From assembly GCA_903930455.1 (NCBI GenBank), contig CAIYYT010000004.1:1-37220 (forward strand): 37,220 bases of DNA. Direction: 5' to 3'. How positions within the stretch are numbered: the stretch's first letter is position 1; the number at the start of each line of letters is the position of its first letter. A program made the position numbers and the translations under genes. Shown one piece after another: positions 19,433 through 25,747 of this stretch. This DNA is from an uncultured bacterium (GTDB lineage: Bacteria > Zixibacteria > MSB-5A5 > CAIYYT01). A model generated the notes under the pieces. It did no database searches. It was given only the letters and a program-made list of their open reading frames with translations, and had not been told where the DNA came from.

Positions 19433-20568
19433 TCATTTCGATTTCAGAATTCCTTCGCGTTCAAGCACTTTGCGTATCTCTTCGCTACACTCGAGAATAT
19501 TGCCTTTACGAAATCTGATCTGCCCAAGACCTGACACATTCGAGAACTCGCTACAGCCTTCTTCCAGGAGAACAATGGCCTTACGCATTCCAAGACGACC
19601 CTGAAATAGCCCCACTTCATGGATGACATTTTCTCGAGCGTGCTTTGACCCATCTGCATGTTCATCTTCTGCGGTCATGATCAGGAGCGCGAAGCAACTC
19701 TGATCAAGTAATTCTTCTAGTCGCTCTAGGGTACTGACTCCAGCTGCTGACTCCCTGTTGAATTCGGTGTAGTCCACAGTCGTTCCGAAAGGAGGTCTTT
19801 CAACTCCCGCCAGAGCGCCGACCGCCCGTGTCCCAAAAAGATCTTATTGCCTGTTACACTTGACACTGCTATTCTCCGCGTTATAGAAGATTCTCTTGCT
19901 TCTATGTACTTCGTGGCCTTCCTCGCTAGCTTAAGCAGTTCCTGGATACTGGAAATATGAGACTTGAACTCGATCACTCTACCCAGAACCCGTATGTGGG
20001 GTGGAACCTGCAAACTGCCCTGCACTGCTCTCTGATCTCGGGTGATTAACTGTTTCTTGCCGACTAGAAGAGTCACGTAATCAGAATAACTGATATGAGA
20101 TTGAGACCCTTTCCATTCTTCCAGTGTTGCCGCTAAAAAGGCGTCTGCAGAGAGTGCATTTGCCTCGAATACTATTATGAGATCGTCCTTGGCGTTCTGA
20201 AACGCATCCTCCAAATCGCTTTCGAGGTCAAAGATTGAATTAGGATTGGTCAAGGACGAAGCCGCATAGATTTGCTGCACTAGCGCCTCTGGATCGAATT
20301 CTGACCATTCTCCCGTCGATGTGTTACCGAATGCTCCATACTGTCCCCATTCAAGGTCAAAGCTCTCTCCAGGTTTTCTAGGTTTTAGATCGCGTTTGTA
20401 GATGAAAGCATGATACCCTAGCCATCCACCTGACCAGGCTTGGGCTATTTGAGCACAAGTCTGTTCTAACGACACTAAGGTTTCCATTGACTCAATGATC
20501 TTCTTGTTCTCGATTGACGATTCGAGCCTTGATTCAATGTCTTTGATTTCTTTTATGATTTTCTTCAT
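19433..20568 (-). pseudogene. TIR-like predicted nucleotide-binding protein, interrupted by one frameshift
   Basis: The C-terminal ~125 residues form a TIR-like nucleotide-binding domain of the CAP12/PCTIR type. It starts with KIFLGHGRSALWRELKDLLS and continues DYTEFNRESAAGVSTLERLE, CFALLIMTAEDEHADGS, ARENVIHEVGLFQGRLG (with the conserved Glu expected for NAD+ cleavage) and KAIVLLEEGCSEFSNVSGLG. The frame is lost between ERL and DYTEF near 19774-19780, where one base appears to be missing; without the lesion the protein would be about 378 residues. The N-terminal ~240 residues are not recognised (helical start KKIIKEIKDIESRLESSI, then WLGYHAFIYKRDLKPRKP). Such proteins are often defence effectors, but no partner gene is adjacent. 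It is a young pseudogene or carries a sequence error. Confidence 0.78.
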
Positions 20569-21093: not shown

Positions 21094-21217
21094 GCCGGGA
21101 AATTTAGGCACGGTACGCCATGCCCCTACGCTTGATGGTTGCGAGCAGAGCCAAGAAAACGCTTGATTTTGGGCTGTCGTAAGGGTAGTTTTGCGGACAA
21201 ACTTTTTGGAGGAATTC

Positions 21218-22741
21218 ATGAGTGTTAAGATAGGTGATAGCAAAATCAGTATATATGACGTCCGCAAGATCGCCCGTCATAACGATAAAATTGAGCTGAC
21301 CCCGGCGGCTGTCGACCGGATCAATAATTGTCGAAAATTCGTCGACAAGAAGGTTGCCGAACAGGAAGTAATGTACGGCATCAATACCGGTATCGGTGAT
21401 CTGGCTAAGATGGCTTTGCCAGCCGAGAAGCTCGAAGTATTTCAGAAGTTGTTGGTCTTCTCGCATGCCGCCGGCTATGGCGATCCCATGGCGATTGAGT
21501 TTGTGCGCGCAGCGTGGACGTCGCGCATCAATGTGCTCTCAAAAGGGCACTCCGGGTGCAATTTGCGCGTGGTCGAAACGATGATGAACATGCTGAACAA
21601 AGGAGTAATTCCGGTTTCGTGTGAAAAGGGTTCGGTCGGCGCGTGCGGTGATTTGTCGCCGCTGTCGCAAATGTCGCTGGTGATGATTGGCGTTGGTGAG
21701 GCGTTTTATCAGGGACAACGGATGAGCGCGGAAGACGCTATGAAAAAGGCCGGAATTCCGATCATCAAATTCGAGGCGCGCGATGGTTTGGCTTCGATCA
21801 ACGGCTCGAATGTCATCTCCGGAGCAGGCTCGCTTTTGATGTGCGATGCAATCGACGTCGTGAAGAACTCCGAAATAGCGGCGGCGATGACTCTGGAAGC
21901 GCTCAATACAAATCCTCAGGCACTGGATGAACGGATTCATAAGATCAGAGGATTTGCCGGAGCGGTGAGATCGGCGGAGCATATCCGTGAGATCATGAAG
22001 GATTCCGAGATCATGAAGCGTAGCGGCAAGAATGTGCAGGATGCCTATTCGCTACGCTCGACGCCGCAAGTTGTCGGCGCTGTTTGGGACTGCCTTGATT
22101 ATGCGAGAAAGCAATTTGAAGTAGAGATCAATGGCGTCGGCGATAATCCGATCTTCTTCCCGGATGAAGGTATCGTCCTGACGGGGGCGAATTTCCAGGG
22201 GACGCCAATTTCCTATCCGCTTGATTTTGTCGGCTCCGGTCTGACGATGGTAACGGTCATTTCCGAACGTCGCCTCAACCGACTGCTCAATAAGGCACTG
22301 TCAATGGGATTGCCGGCCTATTTGACCAAAGGCGCAGGGATGATGTCGGGAATGATGCTGATGCAGTACACCGCAGGCGCGCTGGTATGCGAAAATCGTA
22401 TCCTGTCAGCACCGGCGTCAATCGGCTCAATTCCGGCGGCGGCCGATCAGGAAGATTTTGTATCAATGGGTATGACAACGCTTTTGAAGACACGGGACAT
22501 CATCAAGAATGCGTTCGCCGGCATGGCGATGGAGATGATTGCCGGAGCGCAGGCATTTGACCTGCTCAAGCCGCTGAAGCCGGGCAAAGGTTCCTTGGCG
22601 GCGTACGAAGTCATTCGCAAGCATGTGCCGTATATGGACGATGACCGCCCGTTGCACAAGGATATCAATGCAATGGCGGAGGCAGTGAGAAGTGGCGAAG
22701 TTTTGGCGGCGGTGGAATCGGCAGTTGGTGAATTGAAATAG
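21218..22741 (+). CDS. hutH: Histidine ammonia-lyase (MIO-type aromatic amino acid lyase)
   Basis: Catalyses non-oxidative deamination of histidine to trans-urocanate using a self-made MIO electrophile. It is 507 residues long, the family norm. MIO region: GSVGACGDLSPLSQ, where the usual Ala-Ser-Gly is A142-C143-G144. Y53 (YGINTGIG) and H83 (SHAAGYG), the latter typical of histidine rather than phenylalanine lyases, are in place. NGVGDNPIFFPDEG and AAADQEDFVSMGM complete the active site. Cys at position 143 is known from mutant studies of the Pseudomonas enzyme to allow MIO formation, so activity is expected. Substrate choice (His versus Tyr) is inferred from H83 only. The start is ATG 21218 after GGAGGA. 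No other hut genes are nearby. Confidence 0.9.
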   Translation: MSVKIGDSKISIYDVRKIARHNDKIELTPAAVDRINNCRKFVDKKVAEQEVMYGINTGIGDLAKMALPAEKLEVFQKLLVFSHAAGYGDPMAIEFVRAAWTSRINVLSKGHSGCNLRVVETMMNMLNKGVIPVSCEKGSVGACGDLSPLSQMSLVMIGVGEAFYQGQRMSAEDAMKKAGIPIIKFEARDGLASINGSNVISGAGSLLMCDAIDVVKNSEIAAAMTLEALNTNPQALDERIHKIRGFAGAVRSAEHIREIMKDSEIMKRSGKNVQDAYSLRSTPQVVGAVWDCLDYARKQFEVEINGVGDNPIFFPDEGIVLTGANFQGTPISYPLDFVGSGLTMVTVISERRLNRLLNKALSMGLPAYLTKGAGMMSGMMLMQYTAGALVCENRILSAPASIGSIPAAADQEDFVSMGMTTLLKTRDIIKNAFAGMAMEMIAGAQAFDLLKPLKPGKGSLAAYEVIRKHVPYMDDDRPLHKDINAMAEAVRSGEVLAAVESAVGELK

Positions 22742-23332: not shown

Positions 23333-25747
23333 ATGCTTGTCGGTTTTGTCGCGACGAATCGCAGATCACGACTCTTTGCCGAAGTTACTATTCTGGCTGT
23401 TGCAGTGGCTTGGTTTTTTGTGGTAGGGTCGGTGTTTGCATCAGACAAGTCGCTGTCGGTTTATGGAATCAATACCATGCCGTTGTCGTTCACGCAGAAT
23501 AATGGGCAGTGGAATGAACAGGTAGCGTTCCGCGCGAACGCCGGTGGGTTTACGGGGTGGTTTGGGAGAGAAGGGTTGACCTATCAGTTTACACGACGCA
23601 CCGGTAGGGGCACACTGCGTGTGCTCGATTCATTGAGGGTGCATGCCAGTCGCCCGTACTCAATAGAAGGACTGGATTCCTGCCTTCGCGGGAATGACAT
23701 GGAGGGGGACAGCGTCGAGCAATTGGCGCTGACCGCCAAATTTATCGGCGCAAATCCGAACCCACAAGTTCTCGGCGAAGAGCTGATGGAATACAAATGC
23801 AATTACTTCATCGGGAACGATCCGACGAAATGGCGGAGGGATGTGCCAAACTACCAATCCGTAGTCTACAAGGACATTTATCCTGGGATTGACTTGAAGT
23901 ACTACGGCAGCGGTGATGGCAGAATAGAATACGATTTCATCATCTCACCCAATGCTAATCCATCGCAAATCGCGATTCGCTATGACGGCGCGGATGAAGT
24001 CTGCGTTGACAATCAGGGGCAGTTGGTTGTCGAGACCGAATGGGGAGAGGTGACAGAGCATGCGCCGGTGGTATGGCAGGTGGTTGATGGGGATATTAGA
24101 GAGATCACCGCTGATTACGTGCAGAAAGAGGGGAGCACGTTTGGCTTCAGGTTGGGTGACGGATATCAGCCGGAGTATGCGGTGGTGCTTGATCCCGTGT
24201 TGAGCTATAGCACCTATCTTGCCGCCAGTGATGAGGAGTTTTGCATTGGAGTGGGCGTTGACGCAAGTGGCATCTATGTGGGTGGAAACACCTATTCCTC
24301 CGATTTCCCGGTGCAAAATCCCTTTCAGGGGACACTGTATGACAGAAGTGACGCCTATGTCACAAAGCTGAACAAGGCAGGCAATGCTCTGGTCTACAGC
24401 ACCTATCTTGGTGGCAATGACGATGATTTTACAAACGGGTTTACAATCGACCAGAGTGGTCATGCCTATGTGGTCGGCGAGACGCGAGCTAACAATTTCC
24501 CGATGCACAATGCGTTTCAGTCGACCAATCACGGAATCTCCAACGTCTTCATCACGAAACTGAGCACAGGCGGCGACAGTCTGTCATACAGCACTTACCT
24601 TGGCGGCACATCTCTCGATTATGGTGAGGCCGTAGCTGTTGACAACAACGGGAATGCCTATGTCACCGGCATTTCCAGATCAGCAAATTTCCCGTTGAAG
24701 AACCCTATCCAGGCGACCGCCAAGGGAGAGGACGCATTTGTCACAAAGATGGGCGCGGCAGGTGACAGTCTGGTCTATAGCACCTATTTGGGTGGCACCA
24801 GTTGGGACGATGCTTTCGCAATCGCCGTGGACAAGGCCGGCGCCGCCTACATCACCGGGGGAACGGAGTCGACGAATTATCCGACTCTGAACCCATTTCA
24901 GGCAATCTATGGCGGGAGTCTCGAGGACTGCTTTGTCACCAAGTTGAATAGCGCTGGGAGCGCTCTTGTCTTTAGCACCTATCTGGGGGGAAACGACGAC
25001 GAATATGGTTTTGGCATTGCCGTGGATACCAACTGCAATGCCTATGTCACAGGTCGAACCGGGTCCATGAACTTTCCGACCGTGAATCTGATTGAATCAG
25101 TATATCAAGGGGGCTGGTACGATGCTTTTGTTACCAAGTTGGATGGCGCCGGCAACACGCTTCAATACAGTACTTTCTTGGGCGGCAGTGACTGGGACGA
25201 GGGCGACGCAATTACTGTCGATAAGCAAGGCAATGCTTATGTGACGGGGGGTACGAATTCCAGTGATTTCCCGACCTTGGATGCCTATCAGACAACCAAC
25301 CAGGGTTCGTACTCCGCCGATGTTTTCCTTTCGAAGTTGACTCCGGAAGGTAGCGCTCTTGTGTACAGCACCTACCTGGGCGGTAGTAGGGGAGACGAGG
25401 GCAGAGGAATCGCGATTGATGGCATAGGGAATGTCTATGTCGCCGGCAGAACCGATTCACCAAATTTCCCGACGCACAACGCCTATCAGTCGACAGGTAA
25501 TGGTGGTGACGATATCTTCATCACCAAGCTCAGGGAATCTAAGTGTGGCGATGCCGACGGCAGCCACGACATCGACATCGCTGACGTCGTCTATCTGATA
25601 AACTATATCTTTTCCGGTGGCCCCGCGCCCAATCCCTTGGTGGCCGGAGATGCTGACTGCAGCGGAGATATCGACATTGCCGATGTGGTGTATCTGATCG
25701 CTTACATCTTCTCCGGCGGGCCGGAGCCGTGTGCGGCATGCAAATAG
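23333..25747 (+). CDS. Secreted SBBP beta-propeller protein with C-terminal dockerin-like repeats
   Basis: An 804-residue exported protein. The signal peptide covers about 1-37 (ILAVAVAWFFVVGSVFA). Residues about 48-290 form the N-terminal domain usual for SBBP proteins (FTQNNGQWNEQVAFRANAGG, YPGIDLKYYGSGDGRIEYDF). Then come seven seven-bladed-propeller-type SBBP repeats, each opening YSTYLGG and containing AYVTG...NFPT. The last ~65 residues are two dockerin-like calcium-binding repeats (GDADGSHDIDIADVVYLI and GDADCSGDIDIADVVYLI, each followed by FSGGP). These C-terminal repeats are typical of Zixibacteria-like genomes. A palindromic repeat is inserted in frame near residue 115. The start follows GGGAGAAG. 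It is probably surface-attached or secreted; the ligand is unknown. Confidence 0.9.
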   Translation: MLVGFVATNRRSRLFAEVTILAVAVAWFFVVGSVFASDKSLSVYGINTMPLSFTQNNGQWNEQVAFRANAGGFTGWFGREGLTYQFTRRTGRGTLRVLDSLRVHASRPYSIEGLDSCLRGNDMEGDSVEQLALTAKFIGANPNPQVLGEELMEYKCNYFIGNDPTKWRRDVPNYQSVVYKDIYPGIDLKYYGSGDGRIEYDFIISPNANPSQIAIRYDGADEVCVDNQGQLVVETEWGEVTEHAPVVWQVVDGDIREITADYVQKEGSTFGFRLGDGYQPEYAVVLDPVLSYSTYLAASDEEFCIGVGVDASGIYVGGNTYSSDFPVQNPFQGTLYDRSDAYVTKLNKAGNALVYSTYLGGNDDDFTNGFTIDQSGHAYVVGETRANNFPMHNAFQSTNHGISNVFITKLSTGGDSLSYSTYLGGTSLDYGEAVAVDNNGNAYVTGISRSANFPLKNPIQATAKGEDAFVTKMGAAGDSLVYSTYLGGTSWDDAFAIAVDKAGAAYITGGTESTNYPTLNPFQAIYGGSLEDCFVTKLNSAGSALVFSTYLGGNDDEYGFGIAVDTNCNAYVTGRTGSMNFPTVNLIESVYQGGWYDAFVTKLDGAGNTLQYSTFLGGSDWDEGDAITVDKQGNAYVTGGTNSSDFPTLDAYQTTNQGSYSADVFLSKLTPEGSALVYSTYLGGSRGDEGRGIAIDGIGNVYVAGRTDSPNFPTHNAYQSTGNGGDDIFITKLRESKCGDADGSHDIDIADVVYLINYIFSGGPAPNPLVAGDADCSGDIDIADVVYLIAYIFSGGPEPCAACK
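23671..23700. repeat. Palindromic repeat inserted in frame in the SBBP gene
   Basis: ATTCCTGC-CTTC-GCGGGAAT, flanked by ACTGG and GACATGG, encodes GLDSCLRGNDM within the N-terminal domain. This is the known peptide signature of a dispersed ATTCCCGC...GCGGGAAT repeat when read through. The repeat also occurs between genes at 846-873. Confidence 0.72.

Follow-up and report, generated by a model that had tools for sequence, protein, structure and literature searches.

A histidine ammonia-lyase-like gene of Zixibacteria with cysteine at the MIO-forming position, a swap found across many bacterial and archaeal phyla

As printed for MIO enzymes, the tripeptide from which the MIO group is formed follows an X-Ser-Gly rule with a central Ser. 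In the excerpts of published accounts considered here, Ala-Ser-Gly (ASG) is called strictly conserved (PMC3903478) and the central Ser is treated as fixed (PMC3903478, PMC9002059). The DNA stretch analysed here (the window; 37,220 nucleotides, which is the entire contig C4 of a 3.77-Mb Zixibacteria genome in 266 contigs) encodes a lyase that departs from this rule and reads Ala-Cys-Gly (ACG), which raises the question of whether Cys can serve as MIO precursor in a natural enzyme and what such an enzyme does. The first-pass annotation had placed the tripeptide at the exact position of Ser143 of histidine ammonia-lyase (HAL) from Pseudomonas putida, and this is confirmed by its codons and by an alignment that is gap-free across the region (Table 1). 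Tyr53, His83 and the QED(F) segment, described there as intact, are all present. The gene is a stop-free, full-length ORF for 507 amino acids whose ATG start is preceded by GGAGG (21208-21212). Elsewhere in the window, a TIR domain of the CAP12/Pycsar type (PF10137, 4.5e-18) is found in a smaller ORF (19433-19777, minus strand) that overlaps a longer ORF (19726-20568, minus strand) in a different reading frame, an arrangement that resembles a single gene broken in two, and positions 23333-25747 (plus strand) encode an 804-aa protein with DUF7948, SBBP beta-propeller repeats and a dockerin-like end scoring below the Pfam cut-off.

Table 1. Positions in the window of the HAL-like lyase gene and of residues discussed in the text, with the evidence for each; residue numbers are those of the window protein unless stated otherwise.
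Feature	Position	Strand	Evidence
HAL-like MIO lyase gene	21218..22741	+	PF00221 525 bits; PRK09367 546.9; model mean pLDDT 93.5
MIO tripeptide Ala142-Cys143-Gly144	21641..21649	+	GCG TGC GGT
Cys143 codon TGC, at the Ser143 position of P. putida HAL	21644..21646	+	alignment
Tyr53, catalytic loop tyrosine	21374..21376	+	167/168 clade rows, 1 gap
His83	21464..21466	+	168/168 clade rows
Asp145	21650..21652	+	168/168 clade rows
Asn195	21800..21802	+	168/168 clade rows
Gln274-Arg280 (P. putida Q277, Y280, R283)	22037..22057	+	Q274, Y277, R280 each 168/168 clade rows
Phe326-Gln327 (P. putida F329-H330); Gln327 marks the clade	22193..22198	+	Q 168/168 in clade; H 65/65 outside (rows sorted into the clade by this residue)
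Glu412-Asp-Phe414 (P. putida E414, then D-H); Phe414 replaces His	22451..22459	+	E 168/168; F 167/168 clade rows

The window lyase is matched over its full length by PF00221, the aromatic amino acid lyase family (525.4 bits, cut-off 27.3), and scores above the cut-off of the HAL subfamily model NCBIfam PRK09367 (546.9 versus 524 bits). It stays below the cut-offs of the hutH equivalog TIGR01225 (519.9 versus 539.15), of tyrosine 2,3-aminomutase TIGR03832 (365.7 versus 501) and of phenylalanine ammonia-lyase TIGR01226 (203.4 versus 519). Four other members of its clade that were scanned also fell short of the hutH equivalog cut-off, all five scoring 499-524 versus 539 bits. An AlphaFold model built from 40 sequences predicts a HAL/PAL/TAL fold and superposes on P. 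putida HAL (PDB 1b8f) with a Z of 47.5 and 1.5 A over 499 residues at 34% identity; the top structural match by Z, tyrosine aminomutase from S. globisporus (PDB 2ohy, 49.3), is about equal to HAL. The window lyase is a divergent HAL-like MIO lyase and, though no hutH equivalog by TIGR01225, most likely represents a HAL-like subfamily that works as a HAL.

Samples from Zixibacteria and Bacteroidota, the only ones chosen by homology, were sorted by residue 327, with Gln indicating the window's clade and His a sequence outside it. When 132 Zixibacteria genomes were searched with the window protein, homologs were found in 111, and the clade sequences that were read (54 sequences from 74 clade genomes, with L031 counted and its two pieces read apart) had ACG in 46 of 54 cases and ASG in 8 of 54. 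Zixibacteria sequences with His at 327 displayed ASG (17), TSG (16), SSG (1) or CSG (1); the 16 TSG rows of these sister HAL-type groups are among L072-L084, L087, L105 and L106, and the CSG is that of L090. For Bacteroidota, 272 of the 395 genomes searched by homology gave a match, and the best 30 of 33 clade matches, all 30 of them clade members, comprised 26 ACG and 4 ASG sequences.

To survey other phyla, a degenerate DNA pattern for G-S/T-V/L-G-x-C-G-D-L-x-P was scanned over 84,980 species genomes and gave at least 115 loci, which were selected for ACG and are uninformative on its frequency. Among the pattern matches listed, 80 of 80 hold lyase ORFs with the motif; of the other 35 of the at least 115 loci, 33 proved on reading to be ACG lyases, and the last two repeat known ACG loci of Zixibacteria (L237 is L071, and L216 lies in L111). 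Residue 327 assigns 93 loci to the window's clade and 12 to other HAL lineages, with 8 too short and 2 duplicates. Among the matches listed, the 93 clade loci come from at least 23 ranked phyla and from unranked ones and include 8 archaeal records, the labels being those on the deposited records, where single records per phylum may be misbinned. The Cys-for-Ser swap at the MIO residue is a common one and extends over many phyla of bacteria and archaea. Among individual loci, the alphaproteobacterial ACG lyases at L131 (6148-7701, minus strand) and L148 (3960-5702, minus strand) have LRDGLSLR and LRDALSLR, respectively, in place of VQDxYSxR and have lost the active-site Gln and Tyr; judged by sequence, they possibly catalyse another reaction or are inactive. 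The named strain of Maledivibacter halophilus (L207, genome G169) has five PF00221 genes, one of them with ACG.

The origin of the window in an assembly of 266 contigs might suggest that the Cys codon is an artefact of sequencing or assembly, or that the gene is decaying. However, two same-family relatives, 79% and 76% identical, share ACG, as do 45 other Zixibacteria clade sequences and the at least 115 loci of other assemblies, and the ORF is full-length with no stops. The probability of this explanation is close to nil, and an error or a lone mutation at Cys143 was rejected, being refuted for practical purposes by the recurrence of ACG in relatives and other assemblies. Resequencing to a Ser codon, named in the first-pass annotation as a result that would overturn its reading, is very unlikely given the retention of ACG at 79% and 76% identity.

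The relationship between Cys-type and Ser-type sequences was analysed in a tree of 71 rows, a chosen subset of 233 aligned rows with the MIO triad masked, for which clade rows were thinned by identity, all clade Ser rows and all non-clade Cys rows were kept and the long row L108 was dropped. The earlier suggestion that ACG might mark a clade is borne out, as the clade is split from all other rows by a branch with 100/100 support. If the tree is rooted outside the clade, as was assumed, Cys is found on the basal clade branches, that of the window protein among them, and the Ser sequences are nested. The tree requires 11 Cys/Ser changes in total, at least 4 of them inside the clade, where they are forced by starred branches, and 6 to account for Cys outside the clade, of which 5 are forced; a FastTree of 190 rows likewise gives 11 changes. 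Cys is basal in the clade, where four or more reversions to Ser have occurred, and has separate origins in other HAL lineages. Clade Ser rows use AGC/AGT (6 rows) or TCN (6 rows) and clade Cys rows TGC (114 rows) or TGT (42 rows), and since AGY and TCN both occur among the clade Ser rows, the Cys/Ser changes must have taken more than one codon route. A Cys codon TGY is one step from either Ser codon set, and both sets occur at the MIO residue in the 233 rows; TGY may be a bridge between TCN and AGY.

Whether the scaffold that carries Cys143 could still form MIO was judged by the residues around it. His83, Asp145, Asn195, Gln274, Tyr277, Arg280, Phe326 and Glu412 are invariant in the 168 clade rows, as is Tyr53 apart from one gap. 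Functions in ring formation and catalysis are assigned to them after studies of the P. putida enzyme, in which the equivalent of Asp145 is needed for cyclisation (PDB 1gk3 is D145A), and His83 is regarded as the HAL-type selectivity residue. An alternative is that Cys143 stays unconverted, in a pseudo-enzyme or an enzyme with a MIO-free, thiol-based mechanism, which would agree with the Ser found in the middle of published triads in the excerpts considered, but none of the MIO-forming and catalytic residues checked has been lost, the same scaffold has repeatedly reverted to Ser, and genes of this type are the sole PF00221 genes of hut genomes, all of which make it highly improbable. The prediction that a natural Cys variant should still form MIO is supported by this analysis.

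No clade position tracks the Cys/Ser exchange, the best mutual information besides position 143 being 0.10 bits of 0.37. The idea that Cys143 requires Gln327 and Phe414 was rejected, as Gln327 persists in the 12 clade rows with Ser and His in 13 non-clade rows with Cys, and Cys135 is unneeded as a partner of Cys143, as it is absent in 8 of 156 clade Cys rows and kept in 11 of 12 Ser rows. The first-pass annotation had also considered that Cys might mark a separate substrate class. This did not hold up, as Cys and Ser exchange within the clade without active-site change and some canonical HALs of hut operons have Cys as well. Although members of the clade are divergent and at times have a canonical HAL as neighbour, the data do not support a substrate class linked to Cys.

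Regarding the pathway, the earlier statement that no other hut genes are nearby is right for the window's contig, on which none of hutU, hutI and ftcD was found. These genes are located on other contigs of the same genome, which contains one urocanase (contig C174), HutI (C193, 465 bits versus cut-off 298) and a fused FTCD (C208), and in which the window lyase is the one PF00221 gene. The role in histidine breakdown, previously left open, is thereby largely answered, even if the absence of hut genes nearby stands. In the Zixibacteria stretches fetched, none had hutU, hutI or ftcD adjoining the lyase. Urocanase was detected in 63 of 74 Zixibacteria clade genomes, in 34 of 37 with another HAL type and in 12 of 21 without a homolog, and the 11 of 74 clade genomes without a detected urocanase are explained partly by incompleteness; a Fisher test of urocanase against clade presence (p 0.012) was given no weight, since genome completeness confounds it. 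A urocanase match was obtained in 39 of 43 named genomes chosen for ACG, and in one of the four others (G161) an incomplete urocanase ORF adjoins the lyase (L182). The clade gene is the only PF00221 match in 17 of the 43, and 15 of these 17 have urocanase. Clade genes adjoin urocanase at L124 (Myxococcota), L165 and L185 (Elusimicrobia) and L211 (Planctomycetota) and, in archaeal records, at L125, L224 and L160, with FTCD-like ORFs too at L125 and L224. The rate of such adjacency is low (7 of 93 clade loci among the matches listed). Non-clade Cys HALs also adjoin urocanase, in Aliidiomarina taiwanensis (L143), Woeseiaceae (L182), Oligoflexia (L183) and Bacteriovoracaceae (L220). The pathway data fit urocanate as the product.

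The same evidence bears on the possibility that the clade enzymes are some other ammonia-lyase or an aminomutase, for another imidazole or aromatic amino acid, with Cys143, Gln327 and Phe414 as marks of its class. Scores below the hutH equivalog cut-off, the replacement of two His of other HALs by Gln327 and Phe414, and a best structural Z for tyrosine aminomutase that is within 2 of HAL would agree with this, as would the presence in about ten genomes of another PF00221 gene directly adjacent to the clade gene or no more than about 4 kb away (loci L129, L140, L151, L188, L202, L231, L257, L291 and L305; genomes G441 and G209). At the named loci, which belong to diverse phyla, the Cys-type gene is found beside a Ser-type paralog (ASG or SSG where read), and three partners that were scanned (L202, L188 and L140) reach 605-704 bits with the hutH model, cut-off 539. 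Against a different lyase are the clade genes that are the sole PF00221 gene in genomes with urocanase, the 7 loci, archaeal ones included, where urocanase adjoins, the invariant HAL-type His83 and Glu412 and the free swapping of Cys and Ser, and we consider it unlikely. Where paired, the clade enzyme could serve a different function or, because active sites of the HAL/PAL fold are built from several subunits, could form mixed Cys/Ser tetramers.

The window gene is probably the HAL of a complete but scattered hut pathway, with its MIO group matured from Cys. The Cys itself, its conservation and recurrence in the tree, the intact residues for catalysis and cyclisation, the predicted fold and the genomic tie to urocanase are observed, whereas MIO formation, H2S loss, substrate and activity are inferred. 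By analogy with the usual enzyme, cyclisation likely proceeds with Cys in place of Ser. The folded tetramer would form the ring autocatalytically from the backbone of Ala142-Cys143-Gly144, by attack of the Gly144 nitrogen on the Ala142 carbonyl with loss of water, and Cys143 would then be beta-eliminated, formally as H2S in place of the second water released by the usual enzyme. The MIO group would be identical by either route and would take ammonia off L-histidine to give urocanate. We know of no assayed enzyme of the window's clade. A bolder idea, to which we give little credence, is that maturation with H2S loss is the clade's ancestral chemistry and that Cys143 does more than stand in for Ser. 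In anoxic hosts, redox state or sulfide might perhaps control the enzyme, which would then be switched on only with a free thiol; in the extreme, some members might keep the thiol for catalysis.

A Cys clade spanning many phyla, together with separate Cys lineages, would correct the rule of a fixed Ser and be a warning for annotation that filters on ASG. Natural Cys/Ser enzyme pairs on one scaffold would permit a direct comparison of MIO maturation, and, with both codon sets at the MIO site in the clade, an essential Ser could pass between TCN and AGY codons via Cys. Within the open-licence literature searched, no natural X-Cys-Gly MIO lyase was found. The UniProt vocabulary includes the term 'didehydroalanine (Cys)', so annotators may already know Cys-type sequences.

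Compared with known systems, the window lyase resembles P. putida HutH (1b8f) in its full-length fold, the catalytic residues checked, the equivalents of His83 and Glu414 and a hut pathway in the genome, but differs in having Cys for Ser143, Gln for His330 and Phe for the His of the QEDH segment and in scoring below the NCBIfam hutH equivalog cut-off. With tyrosine aminomutase (2ohy) and PAL/TAL it shares the fold (Z about 35-49) and an NFQG segment that we take to be PAL-like, whereas His83 and Glu412 are of HAL type and the aminomutase model gives 366 bits for a cut-off of 501. Published tripeptide variants of the same family, in the portions considered, vary at the first residue, whereas the window's variation is at the central, methylidene-forming one. 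The closest parallel for Cys as MIO precursor is a laboratory Ser143Cys mutant of P. putida HAL, which Langer and co-workers reportedly found to be active in 1994; unlike that mutation, the Cys of the window lyase occurs in nature, is the basal state of a large clade and has arisen repeatedly.
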